DNA of 37,921 nucleotides from Pseudomonadota bacterium (GTDB lineage Bacteria; Pseudomonadota; Gammaproteobacteria; Burkholderiales; Burkholderiaceae_C), in contig JAFEEB010000007.1 of the NCBI GenBank assembly GCA_018241325.1, positions 1 through 37,921 on the forward strand, written 5' to 3'. The notes below the pieces were generated by a model. That model was not told where the DNA came from. It saw only the letters and a program-made list of their open reading frames with translations, and searched no databases. Positions 2 through 12,583 of this stretch are shown here, piece by piece. Each line of letters begins with the position of its first letter. Within the stretch, counting starts at the first letter, position 1. The position numbers and the translations under genes were made by a program.

Positions 2-1288
2 CATCAACATTCGCGAGAAGAGCCGGTCGATGACCTCAAGCATCGCTGCTTGGTATTCCCAAGCAACGTGGACAAGAAGTCATACGAAACCGAGGCGCCG
101 GTGCTGCTATGCAATTACACCGACGTCTACTACAGCGATGTCATAGCGATGGGGATGGAGTTCATGTCCGCCACGGCCTCGCCTCAGCAGATTGAGACTT
201 TCACCTTGCGCGCCGGTGACACCATCATTACCAAAGACTCCGAAACGGCCGACGACATCGGAATATCTGCCTTCGTCCCGAATGACTTGCCTGGCGTGGT
301 GTGTGGATACCACCTGACCATGATCAGGCCAGGTGAAGGTGTGTCCGGGTCTTTCGTCAAACGGTTGTTCGATGCCAAGCCAACCAAGGCTCATCTCGAA
401 GTCTCGGCCAACGGGCTGACGCGAGTCGGCCTTGGTCAATACGCGATAGACAACCTCACTTTCGCATGGCCGCCTCGCGAAGAACAAACCGCTATCGCCA
501 CCTTCCTCGACCGCGAAACCGCCAAGATCGACGCGCTGGTAGCCGAGCAGCAAGAGCTGATCGCCCTGCTGCAGGAAAAGCGCCAGGCCGTCATTTCGCA
601 CGCCGTGACCAAAGGGCTCAATCCGTCGGTGCCGATGAAAGATTCGGGCGTGGAGTGGCTGGGAGAGGTGCCGGCGCATTGGGCGATCAGTCTGCTCAAA
701 CGAGCGTTCTCGTCTGTGGATTACGGAATCTCGGAATCCCTCGATAGTGACGGCAACATAGCGATTCTCCGAATGGGAAACATCGTTGACGGGCACTTGG
801 ACCTATCCGACTTGAAGTATGTCAACGCAGTTGATCCTGCGTTGCTGCTGCGGGCTGGCGACCTGCTATACAACAGAACCAACAGTGTTGATCTGGTTGG
901 CAAGGTCGGCTTGGTAACGGCTGAAGTTGGAGAGGCAACCTCTTTTGCCTCTTACTTGGTAAGGCTGCGAGTTCGTAGCGGCGCGTGCGCGAAATACTTC
1001 GCTCAGTTGCTCAACCACCCAGGCTTTCTGGGGCTTGTCAGATCAAGTGCGTTCGTTGCAATAGGGCAGTGCAACCTCAACCCAAATCGGTATGGCGAGT
1101 TCATTGTCCCGATACCGCCCGCTGCTGAACAGGACGCCATCGCGAACTTTCTCGAAAGTCGTGTCTACGAGTTCGATAGATTGGTTATCGAGGCGAAGGC
1201 GGCGGTCAACCTGCTACGTGAACGCCGCACCGCCCTGATCTCCGCCGCCGTCACCGGCCAGATCGACGTGCGCGGGCTGTCGGCATGA
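2..1288 (+). CDS. hsdS: Type I restriction-modification specificity subunit HsdS (5'-truncated by window edge)
   Basis: This is the DNA-recognition subunit of a type I restriction-modification complex; it binds HsdM and HsdR and sets the target sequence. The frame is open to the window edge, so the true start lies upstream; the first in-frame start-like codon is TTG at 50, but coding-quality sequence (ending LKHRCLVFPSN) continues before it. Two target-recognition halves are visible. The first ends in the conserved PPREEQTAIATFLDRE helix, followed by the central linker with SGVEWLGEVPAHW, which opens the second half. The second ends in PPAAEQDAIANFLESR and a long helix to VTGQIDVRG. The repeated 'P-EQ--IA-FL' helices are the signature of the HsdS coiled-coil spacers. 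About 30-40 N-terminal residues appear to be missing. hsdR follows after 74 bp; hsdM is expected just upstream. Confidence 0.95.
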   Translation, partial: HQHSREEPVDDLKHRCLVFPSNVDKKSYETEAPVLLCNYTDVYYSDVIAMGMEFMSATASPQQIETFTLRAGDTIITKDSETADDIGISAFVPNDLPGVVCGYHLTMIRPGEGVSGSFVKRLFDAKPTKAHLEVSANGLTRVGLGQYAIDNLTFAWPPREEQTAIATFLDRETAKIDALVAEQQELIALLQEKRQAVISHAVTKGLNPSVPMKDSGVEWLGEVPAHWAISLLKRAFSSVDYGISESLDSDGNIAILRMGNIVDGHLDLSDLKYVNAVDPALLLRAGDLLYNRTNSVDLVGKVGLVTAEVGEATSFASYLVRLRVRSGACAKYFAQLLNHPGFLGLVRSSAFVAIGQCNLNPNRYGEFIVPIPPAAEQDAIANFLESRVYEFDRLVIEAKAAVNLLRERRTALISAAVTGQIDVRGLSA

Positions 1289-1295
1289 AAACTCC

Positions 1296-1350
1296 CGTTT
1301 CAATAGCTGCTCGCGCTTGCTGCACAAGCGCCAGAGCCCGATTTGGCTCA
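1296..1350 (+). repeat. Dispersed Comamonadaceae-type intergenic element, copy A
   Basis: Lies in the hsdS-hsdR gap. It holds ATAGCTGC, then an inverted repeat GCGCTTG-ctgca-CAAGCGC (1313-1331), then AGAGCCCGATTTGGCT. Related sequences occur at 27753-27808 (reverse orientation) and 32166-32232. I recognise the pattern as a short intergenic element common in Comamonadaceae; the copy relationship is visible by eye in this window. Confidence 0.7.
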
Positions 1351-1362
1351 TAGACCACCGCC

Positions 1363-4300
1363 ATGTCCGTGCACACCGAAATCCACCTCGAACGCGACAT
1401 CTGCGAGCACCTGGCGGCCCACGGATGGCTGTATGCCGAACCCGGCACCGATGGCGACGCCCGCAGCTACGAAACCCCGCGCGCCCTGTATCCGGCCGAC
1501 GTGCTGGCCTGGCTGCAGGCCACGCAGCCGCAGGCCTGGGCGAGCTTGCAGAAGAACCACGGAAGCGCCCTTGAAGCCATCGTGCTCGACCGCCTGCGCA
1601 AGGCGCTCGACACGCAAGGCACGCTAGATGTGCTGCGCCACGGCTTTGACCTGCTGGGCCTGCGCGCGCCCCTGCGCATGGCGCAGTTCAAGCCCGCCCT
1701 GGGCATGAACGCCGAGCTGCAGGCGCGCTACGCCGCCAACCGCCTGCGCGTGCTGCGCCAGGTGCGAACCAACCACGACGACATCATCGACCTGGTGCTG
1801 CTGCTCAACGGCATCCCAGTCGCCACGGCCGAGCTCAAGACCGACTTCACCCAGGACGTGAACCGGGCCATCGACCAGTACCGCTTTGAGCGCATGCCCA
1901 AGCCCAAGGGCAAGTCCAACACCGAGCCGCTGCTGGACTTTCCGCGTGGCGCGCTGGTGCACTTTGCCGTCAGCAACCGCGACGTGCACATGGCCACGCG
2001 GCTGCTGGGGCCGGCCACCCAGTTCCTGCCCTTCAACCTGGGCGATGCCGGCGGCGCCGGCAACCCGCCGTATGCGGCCGGCCACCGCACCCACTACCTG
2101 TGGGAGCAGGTGTGGCAGCGCGACTCGTGGCTGGAGATCATCGAGCGCTACCTGGTCACGCTGCGCGACGACAAGAAGAAGACCAAGGCCATCGTCTTCC
2201 CGCGCTACCACCAGCTCGACGCCACGCGCCGTCTGGTGCAGTCGGTGCGCGCCGATGGCGCGGGCGGCAAATACCTGATCCAGCACTCGGCCGGCTCGGG
2301 CAAGACCAACTCCATCGCCTGGACAGCGCATTTCCTGTCGGACCTGCACGACACAGCCAACAACAAGCTGTTCTCCAGCGTGCTGGTGGTGAGCGACCGC
2401 AACGTGCTGGACGCCCAGTTGCAGGATGCCATCTTCGACTTTCAGCGCGTCACCGGCGTGGTGCAGACCATCACCGGCAACGACGCCAGCAAGAGCCAGC
2501 AACTGGCCGAAGCCCTGTCGGGCGGCAAGAAGATCATCGTTTGCACCATCCAGACCTTTCCGTTTGCGCTGGCCAAGGTGCAGGAGCTGGCCGCCACCCA
2601 GGGCAAGCGCTTTGCCGTAATTGCCGACGAGGCGCATTCCAGCCAGGCGGGCGAAGCGGCGGCCAAACTGAAAGAGCTGCTGAGCGCCGAGGAGCTGAAG
2701 GAGCTGCAGGACGGCGGCGAAGTCAGCAACGAGGACATCCTGGCGGCGCAGATGAGCGCCCGCGCCGGGGCGGATACCGGCATCACCTATATCGCCTTCA
2801 CCGCCACGCCCAAGGCCAAGACGCTGGAGCTGTTCGGCCGTCGCCCGCAACCCGATCAGCCGGCCGGCCCGGGCAACCTGCCGCAGGCCTTTCACGTCTA
2901 TTCCATGCGTCAGGCCATCGAGGAGGGCTTCATCCTCGATGTGCTGAAGAACTACACGCCCTACAAGCTGGCCTTTCAGCTGACCCACGAGGGCCGGGAC
3001 TGGACGGATGCCGAAGTCGAGCAAAGCGCCGCCGTCAAAGGCCTGATGCGCTGGGTGCGCCTGCACCCGTACAACATCGCCCAGAAGGTGGCGATCGTCG
3101 TCGAGCACTTCATCGACAACGTGCAGCCCCTGCTGGGTGGCCACGCCAAGGCCATGGTGGTGACGGCCAGCCGGCTGGAGGCGGTGCGCTTCAAGCGCGC
3201 CATTGACCAGTACATCCAGGAGCACCGCTACGCCATTGGCACGCTGGCAGCCTTCTCGGGCGAGGTGCTGGACGAACAGAGCGGCGAACCCGTCACCGAG
3301 CGCTCGGCCAGCCTGAACCCAGGCCTGGCCGGCAAGGACCTGCGCAAGGCCTTTGACACCAAGGCGTTCCAGATTCTGCTGGTGGCCAACAAATTCCAGA
3401 CCGGGTTTGACCAGCCCCTGCTGTGCGGCATGTACGTGGACAAGCGCCTGGCCGGCATCCAGGCGGTGCAGACCCTGAGCCGCCTGAACCGGGCCTACAA
3501 CGGCGCGCATGGGCTGAAGGACACCACCTATGTGCTGGACTTCGTCAACGAGCCGGACGAGGTGCTGGCGGCCTTTCAGACCTATTACGAAACGGCCGAA
3601 CTGGCCGGCGTGACCGACCCGCACCTGATCCTGGAGCTGAAGGCCAAGCTGGATGCCAGCGGCCACTACGACGAGTTCGAGGTCGAGCGGGTGGTGAACG
3701 CCGAGCTGAACCCCAAGGCCACCCAGGCCATGCTGGTGGCGGCCATCGAGCCGGTGGCGGACCGGTTGCTGAAGCAGTATCAGGCGGCCAAGGCCAAGTT
3801 CGACGGCGCCAAACCCGACGGCCCCGAGCACCAGGCGGCCAAGGATGCGCTGGACGCCTTGCTGCTCTTCAAACGCGACCTGGGTACCTATGTGCGGGTG
3901 TATGCCTTCCTCGGCCAGCTGTTCGACTACGGCAACACCGCCATTGAAAAGCGCGCCATCTTCTTCAAGCGCCTGCTGCCGCTGCTGGACTTTGGGCGTG
4001 AGCGCGAGGGGATCGACCTGAGCAAAGTCGTGCTGACGCACCACAAGCTGAAAGATCAGGGGCAGCGCGCGCTGGTGTTGAACGACACCCAGGGCGAGTA
4101 CAAGCTGCAACCCCTGACCGAGCCGGGATCAGGCCAGGTGCAGGACAAGGAAAAGCTGCGGCTGTCGGAAATCCTGGCCAAGGTGAACGACCTGTTCGAG
4201 GGCGAGCTGACCGACGATGACAAGCTGGTCTATGTCAACCACGTCATCCGCGGCAAGCTGATGGAGTCCGAGGTGTTGGCCGAGCAGGCGAAGAACAACA

Positions 4301-4503
4301 CCAAGGCGCAGTTCGCGGCTTCACCCAACTTCGATGCCGAGCTGATGAACGCCATCATCGAGGCGTTCGAGGCGCATCAGATCATGAGCCGGCAGGCGCT
4401 GGATTCGGAGCAGGTGCGGGCCGGACTGAGGGGGATTTTGCTGGGGCCGGCGGGGTTGTACGAGGGGTTGCGGGGAGCGGTGGCCGAGCAGGGGGACGAG
4501 TGA
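1363..4503 (+). CDS. hsdR: Type I restriction endonuclease subunit R (HsdR)
   Basis: This 1046-aa protein is the translocating and cleaving subunit of the type I restriction enzyme. The N-terminal nuclease core shows D143, then E157-L-K159 in the pattern expected of PD-(D/E)xK HSDR_N domains. The motor follows: Walker A SAGSGKT (309-315), DEAH box (422-425) and motif III-like FTATPKAKT. The later segment containing FQTGFDQPLL and LSRLNRAY matches the second RecA domain of HsdR proteins. A helical C-terminal region would contact HsdM/HsdS. Length is normal for the family. The ATG at 1363 begins the recognisable N-terminus (MSVHTEIHLE); no strong Shine-Dalgarno is seen. It is probably co-transcribed with hsdS across a 74-bp gap containing a repeat element. 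Confidence 0.96.
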   Translation: MSVHTEIHLERDICEHLAAHGWLYAEPGTDGDARSYETPRALYPADVLAWLQATQPQAWASLQKNHGSALEAIVLDRLRKALDTQGTLDVLRHGFDLLGLRAPLRMAQFKPALGMNAELQARYAANRLRVLRQVRTNHDDIIDLVLLLNGIPVATAELKTDFTQDVNRAIDQYRFERMPKPKGKSNTEPLLDFPRGALVHFAVSNRDVHMATRLLGPATQFLPFNLGDAGGAGNPPYAAGHRTHYLWEQVWQRDSWLEIIERYLVTLRDDKKKTKAIVFPRYHQLDATRRLVQSVRADGAGGKYLIQHSAGSGKTNSIAWTAHFLSDLHDTANNKLFSSVLVVSDRNVLDAQLQDAIFDFQRVTGVVQTITGNDASKSQQLAEALSGGKKIIVCTIQTFPFALAKVQELAATQGKRFAVIADEAHSSQAGEAAAKLKELLSAEELKELQDGGEVSNEDILAAQMSARAGADTGITYIAFTATPKAKTLELFGRRPQPDQPAGPGNLPQAFHVYSMRQAIEEGFILDVLKNYTPYKLAFQLTHEGRDWTDAEVEQSAAVKGLMRWVRLHPYNIAQKVAIVVEHFIDNVQPLLGGHAKAMVVTASRLEAVRFKRAIDQYIQEHRYAIGTLAAFSGEVLDEQSGEPVTERSASLNPGLAGKDLRKAFDTKAFQILLVANKFQTGFDQPLLCGMYVDKRLAGIQAVQTLSRLNRAYNGAHGLKDTTYVLDFVNEPDEVLAAFQTYYETAELAGVTDPHLILELKAKLDASGHYDEFEVERVVNAELNPKATQAMLVAAIEPVADRLLKQYQAAKAKFDGAKPDGPEHQAAKDALDALLLFKRDLGTYVRVYAFLGQLFDYGNTAIEKRAIFFKRLLPLLDFGREREGIDLSKVVLTHHKLKDQGQRALVLNDTQGEYKLQPLTEPGSGQVQDKEKLRLSEILAKVNDLFEGELTDDDKLVYVNHVIRGKLMESEVLAEQAKNNTKAQFAASPNFDAELMNAIIEAFEAHQIMSRQALDSEQVRAGLRGILLGPAGLYEGLRGAVAEQGDE

Positions 4504-4610
4504 TCGGGAGGATGGGCGGTAGGGCGGTCGTTGCAGATCTTGAGGCTGCCAAAGGCTGAGCCGCGCCTGCTAGCATGCTGCACCGCAACAAAGCTGGCGC
4601 CATTGAGATC

Positions 4611-5615
4611 ATGGACCTCGACGACCCTTACCACGAACTTGGCCTGGCACCGGGCTCCAGCGATGCCGAGGTCAAGGTTGCGTGGCGCCGCTTGTCCGCA
4701 CGCTGGCACCCGGATCGCAACAACAGCCCGCATGCCCTGCGCAAGATTCAGCGTATCAATCGGGCACTGGAAATGATCCGCGACGCCCGGGACGAAACGG
4801 AGGCTGAAACCGAGGATCCCGCCTCCGATGCGGAAAAACCCACCGTCGAGCACACCATCAGCCTCACGCTCGAGGAGGTGGTGACCGGTTGCGTCAGGGA
4901 AGTTCGGGGCGAGGTGGCCGAAGACTGCGCCGAGTGCAGAGGCAGTGGCCTGCAACTGCATGCTACCCAGTGCAGCGAATGCCGTGGCGCCGGCCACATC
5001 CGGCAGCATCTCTGGTTCGCCTGGGTCTCATCCACGGTCGAATGCACAGCCTGCCAGGGGCAGGGGAAGACGCACCAAAGCTGTACTGCCTGCGCGGCGA
5101 GCGGTAAGGCACCGGCGAGCAAGTACCGCTGCCGGGTGCCGGTCGCACCTGGCGCGCGCGCTGGTGACCTGCTCGATGTCACAGCCCGGGTGCAAGGCAG
5201 TCAACGCCAGCACAAGCTGGCTCTGCGCGTGCGCGTGGAGCTGCAGCCGCACGAGTTTTTCACGGCTGAAGCCGATGGGACCTTAAAGTGCGAACTGCCC
5301 GTCGATGGTTTTGCATGGATGGCCAATCGCTGGATCGAAATTCCAACCCCCTGCGGGCTGCAACAGATGAAGCTACAGCGAGGCCATCTGAACTATCGCA
5401 TCAAAAACGCCGGCCTTCCGTGGACGAGCGAGGCAGAGGCTGGCGACTGCATCGTCACCGTCGTCCCGATCTTTCCGCAAGAGTTCAGCCAGGAGCAGGA
5501 GGCAGCGATTGATCGGCTGGTGGCCAGTAACTCCGGGAAGGCCGGCACGTCGGCCGGCGATCGCATGGCGGCATGGGCCCGGTTGGTGGACAACTGGCAG
5601 GATCGGCGCGTGTGA
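4611..5615 (+). CDS. DnaJ-like J-domain protein with CxxCxGxG zinc-finger motifs
   Basis: This is a probable Hsp40-type co-chaperone that would stimulate an Hsp70 ATPase. An N-terminal J domain contains the essential HPD (residues 33-35 from this start) followed by basic and helical residues. After a short acidic linker comes a cysteine-rich region with four CxxC repeats: CAECRGSG, CSECRGAG, CTACQGQG and CTACAASG. The last lacks the first conserved glycine. A C-terminal beta-rich domain resembles the DnaJ peptide-binding domain. The G/F-rich linker of canonical DnaJ is replaced by an acidic stretch, and at about 334 aa it is slightly shorter than DnaJ. I chose ATG 4611, where the J domain begins (MDLDDPYHELG); ATG 4575 adds 12 residues. 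Neither has a strong ribosome site. It sits between hsdR and the AAA+/protease cassette, so it is not the housekeeping dnaK-dnaJ locus. Confidence 0.85.
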   Translation: MDLDDPYHELGLAPGSSDAEVKVAWRRLSARWHPDRNNSPHALRKIQRINRALEMIRDARDETEAETEDPASDAEKPTVEHTISLTLEEVVTGCVREVRGEVAEDCAECRGSGLQLHATQCSECRGAGHIRQHLWFAWVSSTVECTACQGQGKTHQSCTACAASGKAPASKYRCRVPVAPGARAGDLLDVTARVQGSQRQHKLALRVRVELQPHEFFTAEADGTLKCELPVDGFAWMANRWIEIPTPCGLQQMKLQRGHLNYRIKNAGLPWTSEAEAGDCIVTVVPIFPQEFSQEQEAAIDRLVASNSGKAGTSAGDRMAAWARLVDNWQDRRV

Positions 5616-5812
5616 GATCTCCGATGATCATCAGCATGGTGGACTGATGGTGGCTCGCTTTGGCCGAGACCATCTGTACGGAGGTGTCGTTGGCCGCATA
5701 GTTTTGATCGACTCGTTCAGGCTGATTGCGGCAGTCACTGGAGTCGTCTTGATCGACCGCTCTCCATTGAAGCGGACATTCAGGGCTGATAAATCAGATC
5801 AAGAATTTCAGC

Positions 5813-5842
5813 TTGCGATTCAATAGCACCTGGTGCTATAAA
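5813..5842 (+). promoter_or_regulatory. Candidate promoter with palindromic operator in the spacer
   Basis: TTGCGA (5813-5818) and TATAAA (5837-5842) are separated by 18 bp and resemble sigma-70 -35 and -10 elements (4/6 and 5/6 matches). A perfect palindrome ATAGCACC-T-GGTGCTAT (5823-5839) fills the spacer and touches the -10. This is the position expected for autorepression by the XRE protein encoded 43 bp downstream. The rest of 5616-5884 shows nothing else I can support. Confidence 0.6.
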
Positions 5843-5884
5843 CTGACGACAATGCTTGACGGTTTGCATATGGGGTGAATTGCG

Positions 5885-6199
5885 ATGCGAAAAGCAAGAT
5901 CTCCCTTCATCGAAGCCGTTCGCGCTACGGCCAACGGTCGAGGCAAGGCAGGTGTACTCGATCAAGTCACTCTGCGCGAATTGGACCCGCTTTGGGTGCC
6001 GCCGGTCGAGCCATTGCAACCTGATGAAATCAAGCGCATCCGCGAAGGAGCGCACGTCAGTCAGGCCGTATTTGCACGCCTTCTCAACACCAGCCTGTCG
6101 ACCGTTCAAAAATGGGAGATTGGCCAGAAGAGGCCCGCGGGCACAGCGCTCAAGTTGCTGCATATGGTTCAGAAGCGTGGCCTGGAAGTCGTCGCGTGA
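5885..6199 (+). CDS. XRE-family helix-turn-helix regulator, HigA/NadS antitoxin-like
   Basis: This 104-aa DNA-binding protein has a helix-turn-helix at about residues 57-80 (VSQAVFARLLNTSLSTVQKW), closely resembling HigA-2/NadS-type antitoxin regulators, including the downstream 'G-KRP-G-ALKLL' segment. The N-terminal 45 residues carry a short basic region and the L-R-LDPLWVPP stretch. In the family such proteins usually pair with a RelE/HigB toxin encoded just upstream, but no toxin ORF is seen in 5616-5884. It lies 120 bp before a AAA+ ATPase gene on the same strand. Combined with the palindrome in its promoter, it is probably the autoregulated repressor of the cassette that follows. An orphan antitoxin unrelated to the downstream genes is the alternative. 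Confidence 0.85.
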   Translation: MRKARSPFIEAVRATANGRGKAGVLDQVTLRELDPLWVPPVEPLQPDEIKRIREGAHVSQAVFARLLNTSLSTVQKWEIGQKRPAGTALKLLHMVQKRGLEVVA

Positions 6200-6319
6200 C
6201 TGCGGCGTGCTGCAAAACCCGGTCAGGATGAAAACGTACAAATCCAGCGGTAGTCATGGAATCCAGCCTGGCGGCGTTTCAACACGTCTCCGACGGTTCG
6301 CAAGAAAGGGAGATATGGC

Positions 6320-7327
6320 ATGAATGCCGATATTCTGAAGAGAGTGGTACGAGCCATCGCCGACGGTTCACAAACAGACCTGGACCGGCTGGCCGGCATG
6401 ATCGTTGAAGCCGAACGCAAGACCGGGCATGTCCGGCTTGCCGAACAGCTCGATGCGATCCTCAGGCAGCCCAAGGCCAAGCGGCTCGCTGCGCCGCCGC
6501 TAGCGACTGTCGTCGATCGCACACTCAAAGAGCTTCCTCTGAGCCGGCGCCATGGCGAGACGCTGGCGACTCTCATACCGCACGATCAGCTGGAGCATCA
6601 CATGGTGCTGCCTGAAGAAGTAGAGCAGCGTTTCGCCCGCATCGAAGCGGAATATGCGGCCCGTGATCGGCTGCGTACTTTCGGACTCAAGCCACGCAAG
6701 ACTGTGTTGCTTTACGGCCCGCCGGGCTGCGGCAAGTCGTTGGGTGCCAAGCGACTCGCCTGGAATACCGGCCTGCCGCTGATGAAGGTGCGCTTCGACG
6801 TGCTTATCTCCTCGTTCTTTGGGGAGTCGGCCCAGAACCTGCGATCCATCTTCAGTAGCGCCAGGGAGAAGCCGTGTGTGCTGCTGCTCGACGAATGCGA
6901 CTTCATTGCACGATCACGCACTGCCTCTAAGGACATCGGCGAAGTGTCCCGCATCGTCAACTCGCTGCTGCAGCTCATGGAAGAGTACGACGCGCCTGGC
7001 CTGCTAGTTGCGACCACGAATCTCGAGTCCGCGTTGGACCCTGCGCTGTTCAGGCGCTTCGACGATGTCTTCTCCATCCCCCTGCCCGGCAAGACCGAAA
7101 TTGAGAAGCTGCTGAAGATGACGCTGTCCAGCGTTCGGATGGACCGAACCATCGCCTGGGAGCCATTGGTCGCCAAGCTGGAAGGCTCGTCGGCCGCGAT
7201 GGTCGTGAAGGCGGCGCAGGACGCCGCAAAAGCCGCTGTGCTGGCCGGCCGCCAGTCCTTGTCGCAAGACAAACTACTGAGGGCCGTCGAGGAGCTGCAG
7301 CGCCACGATACGGCACAAAGGGCGTAA
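6320..7327 (+). CDS. AAA+ ATPase of a protease-associated putative defence cassette
   Basis: This 335-aa protein is a classical AAA+ ATPase with one module. About 110 N-terminal residues are helical and end near a segment rich in hydrophobic and acidic residues (HHMVLPEEVEQRFARI). Walker A is GPPGCGKS (133-140), Walker B is LLLDECD (188-194), sensor 1 is ATTN (231-234) and the arginine-finger-like pair is R245-R246 in LFRRFDD. The core resembles FtsH/proteasomal-type ATPases, but there is no fused protease. Instead a subtilase gene begins 3 bp after the stop codon, which strongly suggests the two act together, with the ATPase possibly gating, remodelling or delivering substrate. ATG 6320 has an AAAGGGA ribosome site at 6305-6311. 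AAA+ plus S8 protease pairs are known in prokaryotic genomes and I recall RefSeq labels IteA/IteS for anti-phage pairs of this kind; I could not check that these are the same family. Confidence 0.9.
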   Translation: MNADILKRVVRAIADGSQTDLDRLAGMIVEAERKTGHVRLAEQLDAILRQPKAKRLAAPPLATVVDRTLKELPLSRRHGETLATLIPHDQLEHHMVLPEEVEQRFARIEAEYAARDRLRTFGLKPRKTVLLYGPPGCGKSLGAKRLAWNTGLPLMKVRFDVLISSFFGESAQNLRSIFSSAREKPCVLLLDECDFIARSRTASKDIGEVSRIVNSLLQLMEEYDAPGLLVATTNLESALDPALFRRFDDVFSIPLPGKTEIEKLLKMTLSSVRMDRTIAWEPLVAKLEGSSAAMVVKAAQDAAKAAVLAGRQSLSQDKLLRAVEELQRHDTAQRA

Positions 7328-7330
7328 TCC

Positions 7331-10030
7331 ATGCCGGGAGTGCACAACTTTGAACACCTTCCACTGCTCCTACGCTACCAAGGCAAGGCGCGCCTGCGCG
7401 GAGGTGGCGATCCGTCGCCGCAAACGCTAGCCAACAAAGGTGCGCAACGACAGGCGCACAGCGTCGCCCTGGACGCCGCAGCCCAATCGCTCAGTGCGAA
7501 CTGGCAGGCCCGCAAGGCGCAGCGCCAAGCGGCGGGCCAGACCTTGCCGGACATCCCAGCGGGCATTCCAATCCTGCTTCAGATTGACACCGGCCTCGAC
7601 CTCGACGCGCTGCGCGCCAAGTTCCAATTCGAGATCGTGGCGGAGCAGGAAGACGGTTACGTGATCGTGGCGTCTGAAGACATTCAGCTGACGGCGTTCC
7701 GCAACATCGCCCAGGGGTTTGCTGTCACCGTGCGTGGCTCGGCAACCATCGCCGAGGTCCACACGCTGTTCGACGACCCCAATCAGACTGACCGGCTTGG
7801 CCGCATCCTTTCCGACCAGCTGATGGCCTCGTGGGGCAACATCGCAGAAGACCAGCCCTACATCGTCGACATTGGCATCGCCTGCGCAGGTACGCAGGAG
7901 ATTCCGCCACGCCCGGTGCGCGGCAAGCGCGCGACCGACGCCGAGTGGGCGGCCAAAGAGTACGAGTGGTCGGAGCGGCGGGCCAGTGCCTACAACGAGT
8001 GGGACGACATAAAGATCGAACGTGAGACTTCCATCCTGAAGTTCACTGAGTTCTATCGAGCCGAAATCCTGCATATGAGGGACAGCGCCGATTTCGATGC
8101 GGGTGTGCTACCGGACAGTTTCACGGTGCGGCTGAAAATCTCGGGCAAGGGCCTGAAGGACTTCGTCCTCAACTATCCCTACATCTTCGAGGTCGTCGAA
8201 CCGGAAGATATCGCGCTGCCCCAGAACCAGAGTCAACAAGGCGCGCAAGCGACGCCCGCCGTCGCGCCAGTCGCACCCAATGCCGACGCACCCGCCGTCT
8301 GCGTCATCGACAGCGGCATCCAAGAGTCGCACGTCCTGTTGCAGCCAAGTATCGACCAGGCCACGTCCCGTTGCTTCCTGCCGGGCCAAGCCGCAACGGC
8401 CGTCGCCGATGAAGTCGCGCCGGGCGGCCACGGCACGCGCGTCGCTGGCGCCGTGCTGTATGGCGAGGACGTGCCGGCTGTCGGCGCACCGCAGTTGCCG
8501 TTCTGGATTCAGAACGCCCGCGTGCTCGACGCCCAGAACGCTATGCCGGTCGAATTGTTCCCGCCCGAAGCGCTCCGCAAGGCCGTCGAACGCTTCAACG
8601 ACGGCCCGCGCCAGACCCGCATCTTCAATCACTCGATCAACGCGCGCAGCTACTGCCGCACGCGCTATATGTCGTCCTGGGCGGCCGAGATCGACCAGTT
8701 GTGCAACGAGCGGGATGTGCTCATCGTGCAAAGCGCCGGCAACCTGGCGCTGCAAGGCACGCTCCCATTTCTTGGCATCGCCGACCACCTAACTTCTGGC
8801 CGGGACTATCCCGCCTATCTCGCAGAAAACGCGGCCCGCATCGCCAACCCGGGCCAGAGCCTGCAGGCCCTGACCGTCGGCTCGATCGCCTACGCCGCCG
8901 CCGAGCAGGGCGCGTGGCGCACCTTCGCCACCCAGCCTGCAAGCCCCTCGGCGTTCTCCCGGACGGGCCCTGGCATCTGGAACGTAATCAAGCCGGAAGT
9001 CGTGGAGTACGGCGGCGACGCCGCGCGCACGAACAACGTGCCGCCAGACATCCAGTTTGGCGGCGTCATTCCCGCCGCTTGCCCCAACCTGGTCCGCTCG
9101 ACATTGCATGGCCCCGGGCCGGCAGCTGATCGTGACACCGCCGGCACGTCCTATGCAACGCCCAAGGTCGCGCGCATTGCCGCCCAGGTGCAACGTGTCT
9201 TGCCTGCCGAGCCGGCGCTCCTATATCGCGCCCTCGTCGTGCAATCGGCGCAGTGGCCCGCCTGGGCGGAAGAAATGCTGGCGCGCTTGCGCAATCCGCC
9301 GCCTAACATGACGCTTGCGGAAAGACAGGCTCTGTTCGCCGCGGCGTCCAACGCCTTCCGCTGCCTGGGCTTCGGCATTCCCGACGAAGCGCGGGCCACC
9401 ACGAACACGGACTATCGAACGACGCTGATCACGAGCGGCGACACCGAAATCCATGCCAGCGAGTGCCATGTCTACCAGGTGCCGATCCCGGCCGAGCTGC
9501 ACCAGCAGGCTGACGAGTTCGATATCCGCATCGACGTGACCCTGTCCTACGTCGCCCAGCCGCGGCGCACGCGCCGCAACCTACGCCGCTATCTCTCGAC
9601 CTGGGTCGATTGGAAGGCCAGCAAGCTGGGCGAGGGGCTGCATGACTTCCGCGTGCGCGCCATGAAAGACGCCGCGAGCGGAGAGGCGCCGCTGCCCGGC
9701 TCCACGCTGCCCTGGGTACTCCATGAAAAACCCCAAGATGGCCTGATCCGGGACTTCAAGCGCAACAGCGGAACGGTGCAGAAGGATTGGGCTGTCGTTC
9801 GCTCGAATAGTCTGCCCGACCACTTCTGCATCGCCGTGGTGGGACATCAGGGTTGGAGCCACGACCCGGACTCAACGGCGCGCTATGTGCTCGCCGTGAC
9901 CTTTGAAATTTTGGGCGTCGAAATCACAATCTACGAACCGCTGCGCGCAGCGATCGCTGAACTTCAAGCCCAGACCGAAGCCGACATCGAGGATAGTGAG
10001 GTTGAAGTGGAAGTCGAAACGAACGAATGA
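7331..10030 (+). CDS. Cytoplasmic S8 (subtilisin-like) serine protease
   Basis: This 899-aa protease has a complete subtilisin triad: D327 in VCVIDSG, H367 in GGHGTRVAG and S607 in DTAGTSYATPKVA, with a probable oxyanion-hole asparagine at N433 (IFNHSI). About 320 residues precede the catalytic domain, beginning NFEHLPLLLRYQG and followed by a glycine-rich GGGDP turn; this resembles large Y4bN-type S8 proteins. About 250 residues follow it, ending in an acidic tail (DIEDSEVEVEVETNE). No signal peptide or membrane segment is visible, so it should act in the cytoplasm, unlike most subtilases. The gene is probably translationally coupled to the AAA+ ATPase (3-bp gap) and is followed after 33 bp by the helicase. 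The substrate cannot be told from sequence. Confidence 0.93.
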   Translation: MPGVHNFEHLPLLLRYQGKARLRGGGDPSPQTLANKGAQRQAHSVALDAAAQSLSANWQARKAQRQAAGQTLPDIPAGIPILLQIDTGLDLDALRAKFQFEIVAEQEDGYVIVASEDIQLTAFRNIAQGFAVTVRGSATIAEVHTLFDDPNQTDRLGRILSDQLMASWGNIAEDQPYIVDIGIACAGTQEIPPRPVRGKRATDAEWAAKEYEWSERRASAYNEWDDIKIERETSILKFTEFYRAEILHMRDSADFDAGVLPDSFTVRLKISGKGLKDFVLNYPYIFEVVEPEDIALPQNQSQQGAQATPAVAPVAPNADAPAVCVIDSGIQESHVLLQPSIDQATSRCFLPGQAATAVADEVAPGGHGTRVAGAVLYGEDVPAVGAPQLPFWIQNARVLDAQNAMPVELFPPEALRKAVERFNDGPRQTRIFNHSINARSYCRTRYMSSWAAEIDQLCNERDVLIVQSAGNLALQGTLPFLGIADHLTSGRDYPAYLAENAARIANPGQSLQALTVGSIAYAAAEQGAWRTFATQPASPSAFSRTGPGIWNVIKPEVVEYGGDAARTNNVPPDIQFGGVIPAACPNLVRSTLHGPGPAADRDTAGTSYATPKVARIAAQVQRVLPAEPALLYRALVVQSAQWPAWAEEMLARLRNPPPNMTLAERQALFAAASNAFRCLGFGIPDEARATTNTDYRTTLITSGDTEIHASECHVYQVPIPAELHQQADEFDIRIDVTLSYVAQPRRTRRNLRRYLSTWVDWKASKLGEGLHDFRVRAMKDAASGEAPLPGSTLPWVLHEKPQDGLIRDFKRNSGTVQKDWAVVRSNSLPDHFCIAVVGHQGWSHDPDSTARYVLAVTFEILGVEITIYEPLRAAIAELQAQTEADIEDSEVEVEVETNE

Positions 10031-10063
10031 TGCGCGGATACAGGACCAAAATGGGAGGCAGAA

Positions 10064-12583
10064 GTGGTTGACTTCAAGAAGCGACTGGCCGGCAAGAAGG
10101 CTGAACGCCCGACCGATCCGATCAAGCTGTATGACACCCTGGACCGCGCACACGACAAGGGGCCGCTACGTCCCGCCCAGGCCGCGGTGCTGAGAGAATG
10201 GCTTGCAAGCCATCGCGATCAGCAAGACGTGATCGTCAAGCTGCACACGGGTCAAGGGAAGACGCTGATCGGCTTGCTGATGTTGCAGTCCCAGCTTAAC
10301 AGCGCCAAAGGTCCGGCTGTGTACTTATGTCCGGACAACTTCCTGATCGAGCAGACGATCGAGCAGGCCAAGCAATTCGGCATCGCCACCTGCCAGTCCG
10401 ATCCCGAGCTGCCGGATGACTTCTTAAACAGCGACAAGATTCTGGTCACGTCGGTTCAAAAGCTATTCAATGGCATCACCAAGTTCGGGCTGCATCACAA
10501 GTCCGTCGCTGTGGGCACCGTCCTCATGGACGACGCCCACGCTTGCGCCGACACCATTCGCGAGGCCTGCCGGATTCGCATCCCGAAGGACGAACCCGCC
10601 TACGACGCCATCAGGACGCTGTTCGCTGGTGACCTGGAACAACAAGGCGTCGGCACGTTTGCGGACATCAGCAATGGCAAGCGCGACACGCTGCTCCCGG
10701 TGCCCTATTGGGCTTGGATCGAACGCACCGCCGACGTCGCCAACATCCTCGCTGCCCACACGGAGCGCAAGTCGGTCAAGTTCGCCTGGCCACTGCTCAA
10801 GGACATCTTGGAATTCTGTCTGTGCGTCGTGTCCGGCGTGGCCGTCGAGATCGAACCCCGGATACCGCCGCTGACGGCCTTCGGCAGCTATGCCAGTGCA
10901 GCTCACCGCATCTTTATGTCGGCCACGGTGACCGACGACGCATTCCTGATCAAAGGACTGCAGCTCAAGCCGGAAACAATTCTCCACCCCCTGACATACG
11001 CCAAGGAAAGCTGGTCGGGCGAAAAGATGGTCCTGCTGCCCTCGTTGATTCATGAGGAGCTTGACCGCGAGCGGATCGTGAAGGGCTACGCCGCGCCCAA
11101 GCCCAAACGCCGGCATGGCGTGGTCGCGCTGGCGACAGCATTCGCCAGGGTGAAAGACTGGGAGTCGTATGGCGCCACTGTCACGAACAAGGACTCCGTC
11201 AGCGAGGTCATCGAGAGCCTGCGCGATGGCGAATACGAAAAGGCTGTTGTCCTGGTCAATCGCTACGACGGGATCGATCTGCCCGACGACACTTGCCGCA
11301 TTCTGGTCTTCGACGGCAAGCCGTATTCAGAAAGCCTGGTCGATCTCTATGAAGAAGCTTGTCGGCCTGACAGTGTGGCCACGCTGATGCGTACGGTGCG
11401 TACGGTTGAACAGGGCATGGGCCGCAGCGTGCGTGGTGAAAAGGATTATTCGGTCGTTGTCATCATTGGCGCCGACTTGACGCGGCTCGTTCGGGATAAG
11501 GCATCGCGGAACTTTCTTTCGCCACAGATGTCCAGGCAAATTGAGATCGGCCTGGAGATCGCCGAGATGGCGAAGCAGGACATCGATGGCGGCGACACTC
11601 CGACCGCTGCCTTCAATGCACTGGTGCACCAATGTCTCCAGCGCGATGAAGACTGGAAAGCCTTTTACATCGAGCAAATGGAGAAGGTCAAGCCATCCGG
11701 CGCCAACGAGACGGTTCTGCGCATGTACGCGACCGAGCTGTCGGCTGAACAGACCTATCTAGACGGCGACTACGTCAGCGCGGCCGACATGCTGCAGAAG
11801 ATTCTCGACAAGAATCAGGTCGACAAGCAGGACCAAGGCTGGTATCTGCAGGAAATCGCGCGCTACCAGTACCGAGGCAACCGGATCGAATCCCGGCGCC
11901 TGCAGCTCGCCGCACACCAGGCCAACCGCCTGCTGCTAAAGCCGCCTGAAGGCGTCACAGTCGCGAAGCTAACGGTTGTGAGCCAAGGCCGGATCGAACG
12001 CATCGCTTCCTGGGTTGGTAAGTTCGACAACTATGAGCAGTTGGACATTGCCGTGTCGGAAATCCTTGGCCGATTGGCGTTCGGCGTCAAGGCGGACAAG
12101 TTCGAGCAGGCACTTGATGAAATCAGTAGGGCCATCGGCTTTGCAGGCGAGCGGCCGGACAAGGAGTGGAAGGAGGGGCCCGACAACCTTTGGGCCCTGG
12201 ATGACTCGCAATACATCCTCTGGGAGTGCAAGGACGAGGTCGAGATCACCCGCTCGGAGATCAACAAGCGCGAGGCGGAACAGATGAATCGATCCAGCGC
12301 CTGGTTCACCAAGCACTACCCCGGCATGCAGGTGAAACGCATCATCATCCACCCTGCCCGCGCCGTCGCCAGTGCGGCATCGTTCACCCACGATGTCGAG
12401 GCGATGCGCGCGCAGGAGCTGAGGCAATTCGTCAAACGGCTGCGCGACTTTTTCAAGAGCTTCGAGTCGCTGAATTTCCGCGATCTTTCAGTCACGCACA
12501 TCCAGAAGCTCGTCAACCAGCATGGTCTCGATGTGCAGACGTTACTGACACAGTCGACAAAGAAGTTGAGGAACCTCAATTAG
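10064..12583 (+). CDS. XPD/DinG-like SF2 helicase with C-terminal PD-(D/E)xK-like nuclease domain
   Basis: This is an 839-aa protein. The helicase motifs are Walker A HTGQGKT (61-67), motif II DDAH (156-159), motif III SAT (286-288), motif V-like YDGIDLPDD and motif [10 protein letters not shown] (450-457). The arrangement is like XPD/DinG, but the four-cysteine Fe-S cluster is absent. Residues about 480-690 are helical and include a TPR-like stretch ([13 protein letters not shown]). The C-terminus has D707 in GPDNLW, E721-C-K723 in LWECKDE and Q740 in AEQMNRS, matching the D...ExK...Q pattern of restriction-like nucleases. Start is GTG 10064, supported by GGGAGG five bases upstream (10053-10058). 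It is in the same operon as the protease and ATPase. Functional partnership is inferred from position only. Confidence 0.88.

Follow-up and report, generated by a model that had tools for sequence, protein, structure and literature searches.

The joined anti-phage locus raises the question of whether four genes packed on one strand, encoding an XRE-type regulator, an AAA+ ATPase, a subtilisin-like (S8) protease and a helicase fused to a nuclease, form a single defence machine or are separate systems that have come to lie together. The stretch of DNA analysed (the window) covers bases 1 to 37,921 of contig C77, which is 62,490 bases long and belongs to a 3.8-Mb draft genome. The locus combines a known ATPase-protease system, in divergent form, with a representative of a known nuclease system; the evidence does not support the new three-gene system that had been proposed. 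It is very likely that the stretch consists of two separate known anti-phage systems joined end to end, most likely as one transcription unit; their close packing thus seems to reflect a common location and not a new machine.

Layout and components of the cassette

All four cassette genes lie on the + strand (Table 1), with gaps of 3 bp between ietA and ietS and 33 bp between ietS and hna; GGGAGG precedes the GTG start of hna at 10064. The open reading frames confirm this arrangement as originally predicted, and profile matches bear out the type I restriction neighbours, with a DnaJ-like gene in between that the prediction did not mention. The assignment to a defence locus also holds, as PADLOC families are matched. 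The cassette is shared with a locus in Noviherbaspirillum (L006) at 85% DNA identity over 6.8 kb by blastn; at the blastn setting used no match was found outside the extent given in Table 1, and the flanks differ. Of 36 pairwise comparisons among relatives of the four genes, 33 gave a finite dN/dS; these values lie between 0.036 and 0.137 (with many dS above 1, individual figures are approximate), which argues that the four are genuine genes. Synonymous divergence between the window and L006 is broadly similar across the cassette (xre 0.59, ietA 0.52, ietS 0.74, hna 0.52); as the cassette is intact in two places with different flanks, at least two lineages appear to have maintained the linkage for some time.

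Table 1. Positions of the cassette and its neighbours in the window, with the basis of each assignment.
Feature	Position	Strand	Basis or remark
hsdS (type I R-M)	50-1288	+	PADLOC/Pfam-type profile matches
hsdR (type I R-M)	1363-4503	+	PADLOC/Pfam-type profile matches
DnaJ-like gene	4575-5615	+	between hsdR and the XRE gene
Four-gene cassette, extent common to window and L006	5768-12608	+	blastn
Putative promoter/operator with palindrome TAGCACCTGGTGCTA	5813-5842 (palindrome 5824-5838)	+	conservation in four loci
XRE/HTH_3 regulator, 104 aa	5885-6199	+	antitoxin-like; MqsA/NadS-type matches below cut-offs
IetA-type AAA+ ATPase, 335 aa	6320-7327	+	PADLOC IetA, NCBIfam IteA, residue alignment
IetS-type S8 protease, 899 aa	7331-10030	+	PADLOC IetS, Peptidase_S8, profile-profile match
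Hna, SF2 helicase + C-terminal PD-(D/E)XK nuclease, 839 aa	10064-12583	+	PADLOC PDC-S28, PDB 10UJ

By sequence comparison the ATPase and the protease are a divergent IetA/IetS pair. The PADLOC profiles give 250 bits for IetA and 187 bits for IetS (bits alone, not set against PADLOC cut-offs), while the NCBIfam models give 216 bits for IteA (NF042959, cut-off 510) and 120 bits for IteS (NF042956, cut-off 900); scores below these equivalog cut-offs mark the pair as a divergent relative and not as IteA/IteS equivalogs. The original prediction was right that AAA+-S8 pairs had been catalogued; the names it gave, IteA/IteS, are those of NCBIfam, and PADLOC uses IetA/IetS. IetAS reportedly goes back to Gao et al. 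2020. As in the known system, an AAA+ ATPase adjoins an S8 protease and the catalytic residues are present; in contrast, the canonical pairs that the class search yielded (L027−L037) are ~27−35% identical to the window IetA and IetS in the parts aligned by tblastn, and the window pair is preceded by an XRE gene.

IetA carries the features required of a hexameric AAA+ unfoldase, namely Walker A and B motifs, arginine fingers and an aromatic residue at the pore-loop position. In the alignment K139 (Walker A), D191/E192 (Walker B) and R245/R246 are invariant in 10 sequences, and position 166 is aromatic (F or Y; F166 in the window), which we take to be the substrate-gripping pore loop position of Cdc48-type unfoldases; the best PDB sequence relatives of IetA are Cdc48/p97-type chains. 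IetS matches Peptidase_S8 at 103 bits and its S8 catalytic triad is complete; D327, H367, N471 and S607 are invariant in 10 aligned homologues. When the window-type IetS profile was compared by hhalign with six canonical IetS proteins from the class search, the match ran over positions 7−855 (E 2.6e-65); the kinship with IetS therefore spans nearly the whole protein, beyond the S8 domain. Inspection revealed no evident signal peptide, and for the N-terminal region 1−290 a Pfam search of the 10 members gave no hit at E ≤ 1. The IetS profile gave six weak matches in the PDB, to subtilisin-like proteases over short stretches. Structure predictions were too weak for use, with a mean pLDDT of 45 for IetS (10 sequences) and 62 for IetA; Foldseek with the weak IetS model returned no match at E ≤ 0.001, from which nothing is concluded.

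The helicase-nuclease is, on full-length sequence similarity, Hna, an already published and structurally solved defence protein. The hna product scores 1040 bits against PADLOC PDC-S28, an unnamed candidate family, and in phmmer PDB 10UJ matches residues 1−838 of 839 at 1239 bits, so that the fusion of a helicase with a PD-(D/E)XK nuclease was correctly foreseen; the data section of PMC13381803 gives 10UJ as the Hna monomer. The S. meliloti pSymA Hna ORF located by tblastn is 845 aa, the length stated for Hna in the relevant part of PMC13381803, and matches 10UJ end to end (1931 bits). The window protein is 63% identical to it. Nuclease residues P706, D707, E721 and K723 of the window correspond to P712, D713, E727 and K729 of S. 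meliloti, with E721 and K723 invariant in 8 aligned sequences; the catalytic residues originally named for all three enzymes (D327/H367/S607 of IetS, Walker A/B of IetA and the Hna nuclease residues) are thus conserved. Regulatory residues D31, P34, R36 and Q39 are also kept. The window protein has the same SF2 plus PD-(D/E)XK layout as Hna (S. meliloti SMa2245; PDB 10UJ/9YKJ; PADLOC PDC-S28), but has H30 where the published dimer interface has T30, and its gene sits 33 bp behind ietS. The ORF after hna in the S. meliloti locus (L057) had no Pfam match.

According to PMC13381803, S. meliloti Hna is a 3'-5' ssDNA exonuclease that inhibits itself as an ATP-bound dimer until a phage SSB releases it, with abortive infection as the outcome. 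The passages of PMC12445080 on the locus SMa2245 report action by the single protein and sensitivity to gene dose; a second hna copy in nolR-minus S. meliloti lowered phage 5A plaques >1000-fold. Homology and residue conservation suggest that this mechanism may be carried over to the window protein, which would remain an ATP-bound self-inhibited dimer until phage SSB released it to degrade ssDNA 3'-5', leading to abortive infection.

Ahead of xre lies TTGCGA - 18 nt - TATAAA, and the palindrome overlaps the -10 TATAAA. The pattern TAGCAC-NNN-GTG(C/A)TATAA is kept with small changes in the window, L006, L053 and L058, where the flanking bases have diverged. At ≤1 mismatch, the window's own draft genome holds no second site for this 17-base operator pattern (its own reverse strand aside), and a search for the operator in L062, L064−L068 and L015 did not find it. 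The palindrome of the original prediction therefore stands, being kept in three relatives; the promoter proposed with it was not called by a simple sigma-70 scan, and the case for a promoter ahead of xre thus rests on conservation of the operator.

XRE copies 81−85% identical to that of the window precede ietA in L006, L053 and L058. Among eight IMG/VR loci a close XRE occurs in L053 only, L062 showing a partial 37% match; other HTH genes lie ahead of ietA in L063, L064 and L068, and in L065 and L067 the genes tested in this position gave no Pfam match. As the distant window-type ietAS loci are without the operator and have another HTH gene or no recognised one, the XRE gene belongs to one branch and not to the whole group. 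The XRE protein is 52% identical to an HTH_3 protein in L015 whose gene overlaps a RelE toxin gene, a likeness to RelE-type toxin-antitoxin pairs; unlike in these, neither a toxin partner beside the XRE gene nor a toxin remnant upstream was found in the window, and the protein is probably an operon repressor. It is best read, from these comparisons, as a former antitoxin that is now the putative autorepressor of the operon, with the palindrome probably its autorepression site.

Occurrence of ietAS and hna together and apart

In the loci surveyed, IetA, IetS and the helicase do not recur together independently; the trio was seen in one clade only. A survey of one genome per species (84,980 species), by a scan that finds close relatives only, yielded 18 relatives of Hna; local tblastn placed ietA and ietS beside one of these 18, in Noviherbaspirillum suwonense (L006). 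For five loci (L008, L009, L011, L020 and L022) the upstream sequence is too short for a verdict, and the 13 that hold >2.4 kb upstream comprise one intact trio, two with scars of ietS and 10 with neither. On plasmids, where the regions of 13 of the best-scoring hits were examined (nine out of 250 records for Hna, four out of 465 for IetS), tblastn found ietA or ietS in none of the nine Hna loci, each with 5 kb upstream.

Searches within narrower taxonomic groups point the same way. PDC-S28 is matched in 4 and IetS in 21 of 369 genomes of the class, and the window's own genome alone has both; two of the four PDC-S28 matches (L025, L026) are distant, at 25−26% identity, and may not be Hna proper, and each IetS place has at most about 1.5 kb of flanking sequence. 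Across 398 genomes of the phylum, PDC-S28 is matched in six (E ≤ 1e-100) and window-type IetS in the window's own genome only (E ≤ 1e-60). In a phage collection Hna matches one record and IetS five, no IetS place covering >80% of the query; the viral contigs scanned with Hna gave no match. Seen from the other side, 11 window-type IetS loci are informative downstream (excluding L063 and L067, whose sequence stops within ietS or some 0.6 kb past it): hna is intact in one (L006), truncated in another (L053) and missing from the other nine.

Some copies of hna keep other company. Among the 12 Hna loci with at least one neighbour scanned, four lie beside other known defence genes: hna is downstream of Gabija-like genes in L007, Septu genes in L014 and type I R-M genes in L010, and adjoins a type IIG-like gene in L015. 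The L021 locus adjoins another PADLOC candidate family, and no convincing match to a defence gene came from the neighbours scanned in L005, L012, L013, L016, L018 and L019. In L005, L010, L007 and other loci hna is intact and under constraint although ietAS is missing, a distribution that fits action by a single gene. The original prediction of a linked trio is therefore contradicted insofar as the genes are mostly apart; that they lie outside defence islands is not borne out, given the four loci beside known defence genes and L021. Its suggestion that the three-gene version may be new also falls, as the helicase is the published Hna.

Probable joining and loss within one clade

In a 19-row tree of Hna, a single clade (support 98/100) unites the window with L006, L005 and L010. 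L005 and L010 are sisters within it (100/97), and the order of branching among the window, L006 and this pair is without support; numbers of events in the clade are therefore minima. Both sisters have an intact hna and no ietAS, and a remnant of the end of ietS lies ahead of hna. When the last 25 bases of ietS before the spacer were compared in register with the hna start, using the window, L006 and L053 as references, 16−18 of the 25 agreed in L005 and 18−20 in L010, against 3−10 in the 14 other Hna loci tested. Best local alignment scores were 58 for L005, against at most 29 in 300 shuffles (block shuffles of two bases), and 35 for L010 against at most 28; these higher values come from comparison with L006 and L053. 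With the end of ietS in the window itself, L005 does no better than its best shuffle (29 vs 29) and L010 is just above (25 vs 24). The local scores of the 14 other loci never rose above those of their own shuffles. The blastn match to the window enters ietS (10011) for L005 only; that of L010 starts at 10052, so its scar rests on the local alignment and the in-register counts.

The ietS-like tail before hna in L005 and L010 was also considered as an original part of hna and was rejected, as the same tail ends the IetS protein in L058 and L062, both of which are without hna. The converse loss is seen in L053, where ietAS is kept; the part homologous to hna extends no further than position 10317 of the window although the contig runs on for 2.4 kb, so most of hna is gone there. 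The dN/dS of hna is 0.083 with ietAS (window−L006) and 0.081 without it (L005−L010).

The clade and the scars together indicate that ietAS and hna were joined before the clade split, most simply once, and that ietAS was deleted on the line to L005 and L010; the joining probably happened once, in the ancestor of this small clade. At least one later loss of ietAS, which left a scar of ietS, and at least one of hna followed. These natural deletions, with equal constraint on hna in either setting, argue for two independent modules.

Proposed function of the joined operon

The preferred reading, two known systems joined end to end, may be put as follows. In the ancestor of the clade hna would have been placed 33 bp behind ietS, and joining probably brought it, judging from the junction, under the promoter of the XRE-ietAS operon, which the XRE protein would repress. 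IetA would feed or activate IetS, giving ATP-driven proteolysis inside the cell once infection is sensed. IetAS and Hna would act separately, neither part requiring the other. A search of mainly open-access literature found no paper describing ietAS and hna as one system, and, judged by the titles of open papers on ietAS and defense, no study of the IetAS mechanism.

The junction between ietS and hna bears on how far the two modules are coupled. Its 33 bp contain neither a promoter-like nor a + strand terminator-like match, and the lone + strand promoter-like match nearby, which is weak, lies inside ietS (9903−9930), where 1.4 are expected by chance. The gap without an evident promoter implies co-transcription of ietS and hna, which could have a functional role. 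One possible but less likely reading is that the shared XRE operon itself matters: with no physical cooperation between the products, Hna, being dose-dependent, would be co-induced with IetAS. The operator overlapping the -10 in four loci, the gap without a promoter and the fall in phage 5A plaques with an extra hna copy in nolR-minus S. meliloti, as given in the cited part of PMC12445080, are in its favour; however, L005 and L010 keep an intact hna with neither xre nor ietAS detected upstream. That the genes merely happen to adjoin in a defence island and are transcribed separately is unlikely: hna has its own ribosome-binding site and sits downstream of several different defence operons, but the structure of the gap speaks for a common transcript.

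It is quite improbable that the cassette of this clade is a composite in which XRE co-induces a protease and a self-inhibited nuclease that synergise. IetAS proteolysis could, for example, shift the threshold at which phage SSB releases Hna; if so, break-up of the cassette in some lineages would be a loss of synergy and not of function. According to PMC13427033, others saw ietAS synergise with Zorya II but detected no synergy with Kiwa; in principle, then, systems resident in the same cell can synergise. The integrated system of the original prediction, in which Hna senses or processes phage DNA and so switches on IetA-IetS proteolysis, or else the protease frees Hna, is the least probable reading: the same-strand spacing is tight, the cassette is common to the window and L006 as a block and all four genes are broadly alike in divergence, but S. 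meliloti Hna acts alone according to the relevant passages of PMC12445080 and PMC13381803, ietAS was not seen in 17 of the 18 species-survey Hna loci (five of the 18 with short upstream sequence) or in any of the nine plasmid loci, most of the ietAS loci seen are without hna, some loci of the clade have lost ietAS with no loss of constraint on hna, and L053 has a truncated hna.

With two joined modules as the preferred reading, the lead of a new system is closed, since the supposed new third gene is a published defence protein. The locus provides a natural test of module independence, as joining was followed by loss of either half, readable from the scar of ietS before hna, and argues that defence genes can be tightly packed without forming a single machine. 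The divergent IetAS clade, some members of which have an antitoxin-like regulator and a conserved operator, would be a start for asking how IetAS is controlled.

Composition of the window's defence cluster

The type I restriction-modification system of the window may be interrupted by the contig edge, because no hsdM is found ahead of hsdS in the window and the N6_Mtase matches of the same genome are located on other contigs; hsdS (within the region 1-1288) begins almost at the contig's first base. The defence cluster also includes a chaperone gene, which is DnaJ-like; another DnaJ zinc-finger match, on contig C61 of the same genome, scores better. The genome encodes a second, distant IetA/IetS-like pair, which displays ~38% and 25% identity to the window's IetA and IetS, respectively, over the aligned parts.

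Coordinates of features in the window and at related loci
Feature	Location	Coordinates	Position and strand
DnaJ-like gene with zinc-finger domain	Window	4575-5615	Between hsdR and XRE gene
Second IetA/IetS-like pair	L050 (contig C28 of the window's genome, G000)	41626-46338	
RelE toxin, XRE antitoxin-like gene, Fic/DUF4172 protein, AAA_11/AAA_12 protein	L015	14364-18490	All one strand
3179-codon open frame	L016, Delftia acidovorans	56-9595	~400 bp upstream of hna
TcmP gene	L091, Rhizobium rhizogenes	7651-8427	After Hna homologue

Hna homologues and their neighbours

The Hna proteins of loci L008, L009 and L020 are identical to each other and are carried on short, low-coverage contigs binned as a proteobacterium, Acidiphilium and an acidobacterium; this identity is probably due to binning contamination, and less likely to transfer. 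The four-gene group of L015 lies ~2 kb downstream of hna, and its XRE antitoxin-like gene is a relative of the window's XRE regulator. The large open frame that precedes hna in D. acidovorans has no match in PADLOC. TcmP is a possible companion of rhizobial Hna; beyond the R. rhizogenes locus, a published study lists S. meliloti SMa2243, named TcmP, next to hna (SMa2245) among NolR-raised genes (PMC12445080).
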